DNA of 50,906 nt, taken from the NCBI GenBank assembly GCA_028875575.1, contig JAPPDF010000086.1, positions 1 through 50,906 on the forward strand, read 5' to 3'. The DNA comes from Acidobacteriota bacterium. GTDB taxonomy: Bacteria > Acidobacteriota > Terriglobia > Versatilivoradales > Versatilivoraceae. Every line of letters starts with the position of its first letter. The first letter of the stretch is position 1. Below, in pieces: positions 21,021 to 25,514 of this stretch. The notes under the pieces were generated by a model that was not told the origin of the DNA, did not search any database, and was given only the letters and a program-made list of their open reading frames with translations. The position numbers were made by a program, and so were the translations under genes.

Positions 21021-22217
21021 TCAGGAATCCTGCCGCCTTTTCCATTCCTGGATCCCCTCGCAGAGCGCCTTCAGGGACCGGTCCAGCAACTCGTGTTGCA
21101 GGGCGAAGGTCAGGACCAGGTGGGCCGGGGCCATGTCGTAGAAATAACCGGGATGCACCAGGACACCCGACTCCCGGAGAAGATCGATACAGAGGGCCTC
21201 CTCGTCGACCTCCGCCCCTCCCACCTTCAGGGTGAGATGGAATCCGCCCCGCGGCAAGGTGAAGTCAACGCCCGGACATTGGGAAAGCACGTTGCCGGCA
21301 ATGTGGCGACTGCGCTGAAGCCACCCCCGACAGTCTGACGTAAATGCCTCCCGGCTCTCAAGGATGCCGCTGACCATGTGCTGGACGAGGTCGTTGACCG
21401 GCAGAAAGGTGTCCGAGATGAGTTCCATCACTTCCAGGGACCTTCGAACCCGGGCTTGACGGCCGCTCGGCAATACCCATCCCAGCTTGAGTCCAGGCAG
21501 ACCCACCATCTTGGAAAATCCATTGAGGGTGAACACCAGCGGGGAGGGAGTGGCCGCGGGGCGCGGCAAGGCTTCCAGGTCGTAGAGAAACTCGCTGAAA
21601 ACCTCGTCGGCGAGGATCGGCAAGTCGTGCCTGCAGGCGATGGCCGCCAGCTCTTCCAGGGACTGCATGCCCGCTACCATGCCAGTGGGGTTGTGGGGTG
21701 AGATCAGTACCAGCGCACGGGTTCGAGTACTGATCTGAGACTCCAGGTGGTCGAGATCGATCTCCCATCCCCGCGATTCCTGCAGCCGGTAATACCTCAA
21801 CTGGAGTCCCGCCAACTGGGCGATGGACTCGAACAGAGGGTAGGACGGACGGGGGCAGAGGATCTCCTCTCCCGGATTTGCCAGCAGCTTGAAGCAGTAG
21901 AAATAGGAAAGGCTGGTCCCGGGCGTGATGAGGACCTGCTCGGCCGTGGCAGGAATGCCGGCCGCCCGATAGAAGTCGGCAATGGCCTCCCGGGCGGATG
22001 GCAGTCCCAGGGGATCGGGACGATAGATCCGCGCCTGAGGGGCCGCGTCTGCCAGGATGGCTTGCAGCCGCTCTGGGGGAAAGACCCAACCCTGTTCGGC
22101 CAGGTTGGTGGAAATCAGGTCAAGGATGGTTTGTCCGGAGGCGGCGGCCTTCTCGTACTCCGTGTAGAGGCGATTGGGTTTTGCCGCCAAATGGTCGGCC
22201 AGGTTGGAGAACCGCAT
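21021..22217 (-). CDS. Pyridoxal-phosphate aminotransferase class I/II (AspC/AlaA-like)
   Basis: 398 residues, the usual size. PLP-fold hallmarks include the N-terminal arm (LADHLAAKPNRLYTEYEKA), LISPHNPTGMV with the conserved N-P-T-G, ILADEVFSEFLYD with the PLP-contacting Asp-Glu, and the Schiff-base lysine in LNGFSKMVGLPGLKLGW. The C-terminal GGFHLTLKVGG fits subgroup I enzymes similar to alanine or aspartate transaminases. Substrate specificity cannot be read directly. It is convergent with the SDR gene (13-nt gap) and lies downstream of the peroxiredoxin with a 198-nt gap, so it probably has its own promoter. Confidence 0.88.
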   Translation of the reverse strand: MRFSNLADHLAAKPNRLYTEYEKAAASGQTILDLISTNLAEQGWVFPPERLQAILADAAPQARIYRPDPLGLPSAREAIADFYRAAGIPATAEQVLITPGTSLSYFYCFKLLANPGEEILCPRPSYPLFESIAQLAGLQLRYYRLQESRGWEIDLDHLESQISTRTRALVLISPHNPTGMVAGMQSLEELAAIACRHDLPILADEVFSEFLYDLEALPRPAATPSPLVFTLNGFSKMVGLPGLKLGWVLPSGRQARVRRSLEVMELISDTFLPVNDLVQHMVSGILESREAFTSDCRGWLQRSRHIAGNVLSQCPGVDFTLPRGGFHLTLKVGGAEVDEEALCIDLLRESGVLVHPGYFYDMAPAHLVLTFALQHELLDRSLKALCEGIQEWKRRQDS

Positions 22218-22415
22218 GGGCAGGTTTGGCGGGAGGGCCCGCGGTTACCGGGAAGGCCCGCCCTGCCGCGACTCGGAAAAATCACCTCGGTCCCTGCCCG
22301 ATGGAGCTGCTGGCTCTGCCTCAGCCTGCAGGCCTTGTTTCAGCCCGCACCCGGTCGGGCGCTTTGGGACGTGGCGGCGGGCCCATCGGAAACCCTTGTC
22401 GCCACCCAGAGGCAG

Positions 22416-22940
22416 CTACTGGACTTTCAGCTCCTTGAGCTTGGCAACCGCGTCCTCGGCGGCCGTGGACGCCCTGACCTGACGATCCACGTAAAGGATC
22501 TTCCCGTCCTTTCCGATGTAGAAGGTCCATCGTTCCGGCAGGTTCCGGTTTTCGTGGACGACGCCGTAAGCCCGGGCTGTCTCTTTGCCGGAATCGCTCA
22601 ATATGGGATAGTCCGCCTTGAGAGATTCGGCGAACCGGCGGTTTTCGTCAGCGGTGTCGCAGCTTGCAGTGAAGTAGGCAACGTTCAGGGATCGCAAGGC
22701 TTGGCCATTCTCACGGAATGACCGGCACTCGGCCGTTCACCCCCCTGTGAAGGCCTTGGGAAACCAGGCCAGCACCACCACCTGCTTGCCCTTGAACTGC
22801 TTCAGACTGTATGTCTTCCCGTCCGACCCCGGAAGCGAAAAATCGGGCGCTACATCTCCGGGCTTCAGGTCGGCCGCCAGGGACTGGCCCCAGGTGAGAG
22901 CCAACAACAATACCAGCACCATGGAGATCTTCATCGACAT
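22416..22940 (-). CDS. Selenocysteine-containing peroxiredoxin (in-frame UGA at the peroxidatic position)
   Basis: Reading 22940-22416 in one frame gives 174 residues with a single internal TGA at 22739-22737, residue 68. The first 22 residues form a signal peptide (MKISMVLVLLLALTWGQSLA). The next part is a peroxiredoxin AhpC/TSA fold: GDVAPDFSLPGSDGKTYSLKQFKGK, then VVVLAWFPKAFTGG-U-TAEC. The PxxxTxx-C motif is P61, T65 and position 68, so the TGA stands exactly where the peroxidatic cysteine should be; C72 is a candidate resolving residue. After it the same frame continues without further stop through ENGQALRSLNVAYFTAS, DYPILSDSGKETARAYGVV and RWTFYIGKDGKI to the normal end. A bSECIS hairpin lies just downstream. 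It should reduce peroxides outside the cytoplasm. A plain nonsense pseudogene is much less likely. Confidence 0.88.
22703..22723 (-). promoter_or_regulatory. Bacterial SECIS element of the peroxiredoxin mRNA
   Basis: On the coding strand, 13 nt after the UGA, GGTCATTC pairs with GAATGGCC (8 bp, one G-U) around the loop CGTGA. A G lies at the second loop position, and the loop begins about 22 nt from the UGA. Both fit the bacterial SECIS consensus (short stem, G in the first two loop bases, 16-37 nt from the codon), which SelB binds to insert selenocysteine. Confidence 0.8.
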
Positions 22941-23078
22941 TGGAGTCTCTCCTTATTCAACGGTTTGGAACTTTCCATCAAGACCCGACCGGGCTTGAGG
23001 CTAAACCAGACTGTCTTCAGGTTCATCGTCATGCATCCTGGACTCGGCCCCATGCGGCGATGCAGCGGGATTTTCGGG

Positions 23079-23450
23079 CTAGGCTCCGGTGATCGGATTC
23101 CCCGAGGCCACCCACTCCTTGTAGCCTCCCGCCAGGGAAAACACGTTTCGGTAACCCATGCGCTGCAAGGCATCAGCGGACAACGCCGATCGGTACCCCC
23201 CGCCACAATAGAGAACGATCTCTTCGTCGGCGTCCGGCACCAGCGCTTCGATGTCCCTTTCGATAATCCCCTTCCCCAGATGGACGGCGCCCTCCGCACG
23301 GCCCCGGGTCCACTCGTGATCTTCGCGGATGTCGATAAAGTGGAAGGAATGCCCCTTTTGCAGCTTCTCCCGAACCGAGGCCACCGTAACCTCTCGAATC
23401 CGGGACTTGGAATCGTTGACGAGCTGCAAGAAACCGTTTGAGTGCTGCAT
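23079..23450 (-). CDS. Single-domain rhodanese-like sulfurtransferase
   Basis: 123 residues, one rhodanese domain: FHFIDIREDHEWTRGRAEGAVHLGKG, then the active-site loop LYCGGGYRSA with the catalytic cysteine, and GYRNVFSLAGGYKEWVASGNP at the end. It transfers sulfane sulfur from thiosulfate or persulfides to a thiol acceptor in the cytoplasm; no signal peptide. It lies between ttcA and the selenocysteine peroxiredoxin on the same strand, with gaps of 90 and 138 nt; sulfur donation for tRNA thiolation by TtcA is a possible role but is inference. The alternative open frame over the same stretch is a shadow. Confidence 0.88.
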   Translation of the reverse strand: MQHSNGFLQLVNDSKSRIREVTVASVREKLQKGHSFHFIDIREDHEWTRGRAEGAVHLGKGIIERDIEALVPDADEEIVLYCGGGYRSALSADALQRMGYRNVFSLAGGYKEWVASGNPITGA

Positions 23451-23540
23451 TTCGCTTTTCCCTCGTAACAGTGCCCGTAAACCGGGGGCAGAAGTCCCTT
23501 CAAAAGCGGGCCCTGTTCCCGTCTCACCGGGATCTTGCCC

Positions 23541-24408
<868 letters not shown>

Positions 24409-24422
<14 letters not shown>

Positions 24423-25488
24423 CGGTCTCCTCCAAGCGCACGTAGTCCGCCCTTCGCTTTACCGGCTGGAACCCCTCAGCCAGGATGGCCTCACGCAATA
24501 TGTCTTCCGTAGCCCGGTGATGGGCGCCGGCCGGGGTGATCACGTTCTCTTCGATCATGATGCTGCCCATGTCGTTGGCTCCATGGTGGAGCCCCTGTCT
24601 GCCCACCTCAACCCCTTGGGTCAACCACGAAACCTGGATATTGGGGACATTGGACAGACAAATCCTGGCCAGCGCCAACCAGCGCAGATACTCCTCGCTC
24701 GACTCCCGATCGGGGACCTTGCGACTGATCTTGGTGTTGTCGGGCTGCAGTGTCCAGGGAATGAAGGCCACAAAGCCCCCGGTCCGCCGCTGCAGCTCGT
24801 AGATGCGCTCCAGGTGCTCGATGCGGTGCTCCAGGGTTTCCCCCATGCCGAACATCATGGTGGCCGTGCTCGGCAGTCCCAGACCGTGGGCTACCTCCAT
24901 CACCTCCAGCCACTCGCCGGTGTTGCACTTGTTGGTGTTCTTTTTCCTGACCTCATCCACCAGGATCTCTGCCCCGCCCCCCGGAATCGAATCCAGTCCA
25001 GCGGCCTTCAGCCTGAGCAGCACTTCCCGGGTATCCATGTGGAAGATCCGGGTAAAGGCATGGATCTCCGGCGGAGAGAAGCAGTGGAGGTGGATCCGGT
25101 ACCTCCGCTTCAGCTCACTCAGGAGCCGCTCGTACCACTCCAGCGGCAGATCTGGATGGAGCCCTCCCTGCATGAGAATGCCGCTGCCGCCAAGCTCGAG
25201 GGTCTCCTCGACTTTTTCAAAAATCTGCTGGTGGCTCAGCACGTAACCTTCGCTGGAACCGGGCGGTCGATAAAAGGCGCAAAAGGTGCAGACAGCCGAG
25301 CAGATGTTGCTGTAGTTGATGTTGCGATCCACGATGTAAGTGACGATGTTGTCGGAATGCAACTGCCGACGGATGCGATCTGCCACCTCCTGCAATTGTT
25401 CGAGGGAAGCCCGCTTGGCCAATAGGGCATAAGCCCCTGGACTCAGCCGTTCTTCCTGAGCCCGGCTCAGGGTTTCCTGCACGTTCAT
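24409..25488 (-). CDS. mqnC: Cyclic dehypoxanthinyl futalosine synthase MqnC
   Basis: 359 residues from the ATG at 25488; an in-frame GTG at 25506 would add MDHFTT. Radical SAM cluster motif [12 protein letters not shown] (CxxxCxxC) after DRNINYSNI, then [48 protein letters not shown] and [31 protein letters not shown]. These features match MqnC, the SAM enzyme that cyclises dehypoxanthine futalosine in the futalosine route to menaquinone, rather than MqnE. It overlaps ttcA by 14 nt and lies just after the M28 protease. No other mqn gene is in the window. Confidence 0.88.
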
Positions 25489-25514
25489 GGTCGTAAAATG
25501 GTCCACTACTGAGG

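Follow-up and report, generated by a model that had tools for sequence, protein, structure and literature searches.

A gene on the minus strand of a 50,906-nucleotide stretch of DNA from an Acidobacteriota bacterium (the whole stretch is henceforth referred to as the window) almost certainly encodes a peroxiredoxin in which selenocysteine (Sec) is the peroxide-reacting residue. The computational evidence comprises the reading frame, the codon pattern among relatives, an RNA hairpin, the Sec decoding genes and the predicted fold; selenium would be incorporated at residue 68 (U68), where the frame is interrupted by TGA. The coordinates of the features are collected in Table 1. As an earlier note on this DNA had claimed, the frame, whose ATG start follows AAGGAGA, by inspection a good Shine-Dalgarno sequence, contains exactly one internal stop codon, and residues 61-72 read PKAFTGG-U-TAEC. 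Translation with table 11 breaks the gene into two fragments of 67 and 93 amino acids, the second from an internal TTG, and the match of the read-through product to Pfam AhpC-TSA (1.3e-32, residues 27-150) spans the TGA. When the window was surveyed for further frames read through a TGA, 53 loose candidates emerged; of the 25 listed, none but the peroxiredoxin showed a convincing redox motif. Near the gene we found no promoter-like site and a single terminator-like match, on the opposite strand and no more than in shuffled sequences; at gathering thresholds, Rfam returned four tRNAs and no other match across the whole window.

Table 1. Features of the putative Sec-peroxiredoxin locus, in window positions
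Feature	Position	Strand	Basis
Peroxiredoxin gene (PrxQ/BCP-AhpE-like), 174 residues, one in-frame TGA, stop TAG	22416..22940	minus	Translation, Pfam, AlphaFold, PDB fold matches
TGA codon, putative Sec codon U68, peroxidatic residue of PxxxTxxU	22737..22739	minus	Translation and codons of 109 copies
Cys72 codon (U+4), candidate resolving Cys (UxxxC)	22725..22727	minus	Cys in all 109 copies
SECIS-like hairpin GGTCATTC-CGTGA-GAATGGCC, 8 pairs	22703..22723	minus	Apical GU at 22714-22713
Putative Sec-type signal peptide, residues 1-23 (MSMKISMVLVLLLALTWGQSLAA)	22872..22940	minus	Inspection, low pLDDT, alignment A1
Upstream neighbour, single rhodanese domain protein	23079..23450	minus	Pfam PF00581, 2.4e-19

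To place the gene among its relatives we scanned 84,980 species genomes, which yielded 327 stretches encoding relatives; by title, the best 80 loci come from Acidobacteria, Planctomycetes and Verrucomicrobia, with a few naming another phylum or none. The codon at residue 68 was then recorded in the 109 relative copies that carried the motif in the fetched loci (the window's own copy, L106, was left out, as were L119 and L134, which contain relatives that do not fit the motif pattern). At residue 68 the pattern accepted nothing but Cys or a stop codon, with no preference for TGA over TAA or TAG, and the codon was TGA in 78 copies, TGC in 26 and TGT in 5. The family thus combines an in-frame UGA with Cys homologues at the same site, as bacterial selenoproteins do, and the earlier proposal that the TGA replaces the peroxidatic Cys of PxxxTxxC holds, U68 being aligned with Cys in the 31 Cys-form copies. 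Position U+4 is Cys in 109/109 copies, although the pattern did not demand Cys there. The nearest relatives (L001-L005, 89-94% identity, one of them titled Candidatus Versatilivorator vitaminiformans) have TGA in all five cases. Compared with these five, the window copy has a dN of 0-0.03 upstream of the TGA and 0.01-0.03 downstream of it, against a dS of 0.10-0.58 (crude NG86 estimates, resting on L001-L005 since dS is saturated and not computable for L006). The low dN relative to dS downstream of the TGA indicates that this half is conserved as protein, and because the same TGA recurs in five close relatives from other assemblies with dN well below dS on both sides of it, its presence is far beyond chance. 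A parsimony tree of 92 rows requires no fewer than 10 switches of the Sec/Cys label (mean after shuffling, 23.6), two of them forced by well-supported branches; gains and losses of Sec are indistinguishable on this tree, as its root is not known. In two loci of group-11 Acidobacteria (L007:3001-4400 and L008:3001-4500), two TGA-form peroxiredoxin genes stand in tandem, ~0.8-0.9 kb apart.

The predicted fold is PrxQ/BCP-AhpE-like. The AlphaFold model, built with 37 sequences, has a pLDDT of 91, and among PDB entries it most closely resembles BCP/PrxQ and AhpE proteins (Z 22-23 over ~150 residues, 1.8-2.2 A). The PxxxT(S)xxC/U motif, here PKAFTGGU, thus lies within a peroxiredoxin fold with an AhpC-TSA match, and U68 occupies the peroxidatic position of that fold. 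P61, T65, position 68 and R137 are invariant in alignment A1, and R137 may correspond to the Arg that peroxiredoxins conserve in their active site. These residues make it very likely that the product is a functional enzyme of peroxide detoxification, in which U68 would attack the peroxide and become a selenenic acid. In the predicted structure, the helix formed by residues 66-77 contains both U68 and C72, and we lean towards Cys72 as the residue that would resolve oxidised U68, probably as a U-x-x-x-C selenenylsulfide within one helix that a thioredoxin-like partner would then reduce. Residues 1-23 are hydrophobic on inspection and poorly conserved in alignment A1, and pLDDT is low over residues 1-20; this N-terminus suggests that the protein is probably exported by a signal peptide. 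A different role for the Sec protein, mainly as a thiol-disulfide oxidoreductase of the cell envelope and not as a peroxidase, is unlikely, given the complete PxxxTxxU peroxide site, the invariance of R137 (perhaps the active-site Arg) and the fact that the top structural matches are peroxiredoxins. What speaks for such a role is the invariant UxxxC, a set of weak ResA-like NCBIfam matches and the existence of thioredoxin-fold selenoproteins with UxxC (PMC13188914, PMC1088965).

Bacterial SECIS elements have a characteristic shape and position and carry G or GU in the apical loop. A hairpin with GU in its apical loop begins 13 nt 3' of the TGA, and its structure and placement agree with such elements; it may be bound by SelB. 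The hairpin was first noticed in the window sequence, and its seven-pair core was then tested on other genes. All seven pairs are intact in 47 of 57 TGA genes (window included), with a mean of 6.77 pairs, whereas 500 draws of synonymous codons for the TGA genes gave a mean of 3.41 pairs and, on average, 1.28 complete genes (maximum 5). In marked contrast, the complete hairpin occurs in 0/24 Cys genes (mean 3.79 pairs). The loop codon is CGT in 54/57 TGA genes, compared with 30/240 Arg codons elsewhere in the same genes. In a 30-row alignment, 95.6% of hairpin cells pair, against 34-63% in slid controls, and 21 cells are altered on both sides in a compensatory manner, against 0-4 in slid controls and with 0/500 shuffles as high. 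Among genomes found later, the hairpin is complete in 16/21 TGA genes and 0/6 Cys genes, a set of which a few members may sit near the first (L067 and L112 encode identical proteins). The 54 nt that follow the TGA, taken as a whole, did not differ in this way in their folding energy relative to synonymous shuffles (mean z of -0.93 for TGA genes and -0.54 for Cys genes, p 0.18); hence it is the specific hairpin alone, and not the stability of the whole region, that separates TGA from Cys genes. These results bear directly on the possibility of a pseudogene or a sequencing error, in which the TGA would stem from a nonsense mutation or a misread base and just a 67-residue fragment would be made. 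The splitting of the gene into two ORFs under table 11 would fit such an origin, but it is highly improbable given that 78 copies, drawn from many assemblies, share the TGA, that the downstream half is under purifying selection and that the hairpin is specific to TGA genes; decay of the downstream half, which the earlier note had named as a sign to look for, is not what the relatives display, since they keep both the TGA and that half.

The genome from which the window derives (4.49 Mb, 100% complete) contains selA (526 bits), selB (331 bits), selD (344 bits) and selC, the last being one RF01852 match that ARAGORN identifies as tRNA-SeC with anticodon TCA; the remaining RF01852 matches above cut-off are tRNA-Ser. 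All four decoding genes, whose presence the earlier note had proposed to check, are therefore in one genome, where tRNA-Sec would read the UGA at residue 68 while SelB occupies the downstream hairpin. The selD gene (L100, G000:C52:502-1428) itself carries one in-frame TGA, in SCAG-U-ASK, so that the selenophosphate synthetase of this organism is likely a selenoprotein as well. To assess co-occurrence we used a sample of 297 genomes of the phylum, 45 of which contain the peroxiredoxin family at E 1e-40. A selB gene is present in 34 of the 35 genomes with a TGA form and in 5 of the 10 with only a non-TGA form (Fisher p 0.001, related genomes being counted as independent); in one of these ten, G090, the peroxiredoxin copy is a fragment at the end of a contig. 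Where the TGA form and selB are both lacking, in five genomes, the best RF01852 match is a tRNA-Ser. One genome, G277 (L121, L139; 97% complete), has TGA-form peroxiredoxin and tRNA-SeC but no full selB match, which may reflect an assembly gap. Near-cognate readthrough of stop codons is a known phenomenon, and relatives have Cys at site 68; even so, leaky insertion of Cys or Trp by a near-cognate tRNA, at low yield and without selenium, is scarcely credible here, as it predicts neither a SECIS-like hairpin confined to TGA genes nor the link to selB. That TGA is a regular sense codon in this organism, for example for Trp or Gly, under which code the frame is indeed open, has a negligible likelihood when TGA terminates 7 of 11 genes checked in a nearby stretch of the window, 13 TGA-form peroxiredoxin genes themselves end in TGA, homologues have Cys at site 68 and the genome holds the full Sec machinery. 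Overall, the codon pattern, the sel genes, the relatives, the TGA-specific hairpin and the co-occurrence with selB support the selenoprotein reading put forward at the outset.

The window protein would belong to an already established class of bacterial selenoproteins, the Sec-peroxiredoxins. The earlier description of Sec at this site as a recurrent bacterial solution was correct: the PxxxTxxU motif is highly conserved in Sec-peroxiredoxins (PMC13188914), TxxU members have been known since 2001 with PrxU of Eubacterium acidaminophilum (Sohling et al. 2001, as cited in PMC13188914), and they are common in marine metagenomes. We take COG1225 to be the BCP-type peroxiredoxin group. Sec-peroxiredoxin genes numbered 43 in the Sargasso Sea, where they were filed under COG1225 (PMC1088965), and 253 in the GOS set (PMC2398784), and further surveys list 91 Sec-peroxiredoxins (PMC5029168) and 12 with five Cys-to-Sec events (PMC1794560); the Sargasso and GOS sets may well include the clade of the window protein. 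Like PrxU and its family, it falls into AhpC/TSA (PF00578) and would carry Sec as the peroxidatic residue of PxxxTxxU, but it differs from them in being probably exported, and its score of 39.9 bits to NCBIfam peroxi_PrxU (NF040737), against a cut-off of 270, places it outside that subfamily. Its top sequence and fold matches are PrxQ/BCP proteins (3drn, 3ixr, 5epf; Z ~23, ~150 residues, 26-32% identity), from which it differs by Sec in place of the peroxidatic Cys, by a score to PRK09437 of 76.2 bits that does not reach the cut-off of 140, and by the second Cys, which is at +4 throughout its family and typically at +5 in PrxQ. The fold match to AhpE of Mycobacterium tuberculosis (1xxu, 4x0x; Z 22-23) is equally good; AhpE, however, is a 1-Cys peroxiredoxin by PDB title, whereas the second Cys is invariant here. 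No NCBIfam model matched by the window protein reaches its cut-off, and a literature search for exported Sec-peroxiredoxins or Sec-peroxiredoxins in sponge symbionts gave nothing matching all terms.

In the window (21021-25506) the gene order is CofH/MqnC-like radical SAM, PP-loop (TtcA-like), rhodanese, Sec-peroxiredoxin and aminotransferase, and the same five-gene order occurs in L001-L006 and, in part, in L008. The rhodanese gene is near the peroxiredoxin gene in L001-L006 and at a greater distance in L008. Beyond L001-L006 and L008, the synteny search recovered neither rhodanese nor PP-loop matches near the peroxiredoxin gene, and beyond L001-L008 it recovered no aminotransferase matches, indicating that the context holds only among near relatives.

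What distinguishes the window peroxiredoxin is modest, namely its likely export, the invariant UxxxC and the want of an NCBIfam model at cut-off. The last of these makes it plausible that gene finders overlook the TGA form, so that databases may list this and comparable genes, among them many relatives, as two fragments. Whether, in full, these genes form a clade of exported Sec-peroxiredoxins that is widely distributed across Acidobacteriota, Planctomycetota and Verrucomicrobiota, with a one-helix U-x-x-x-C selenenylsulfide, repeated Sec/Cys switches and systematic truncation in public annotation, is to us an evenly balanced question. The gene is a clean example of finding selenoproteins in raw sequence, because codon pattern, SECIS-type hairpin, decoding genes and Cys homologues agree, and with some ten Sec/Cys changes on the tree and a hairpin absent from the Cys forms, the family could be used for studying the gain and loss of Sec.
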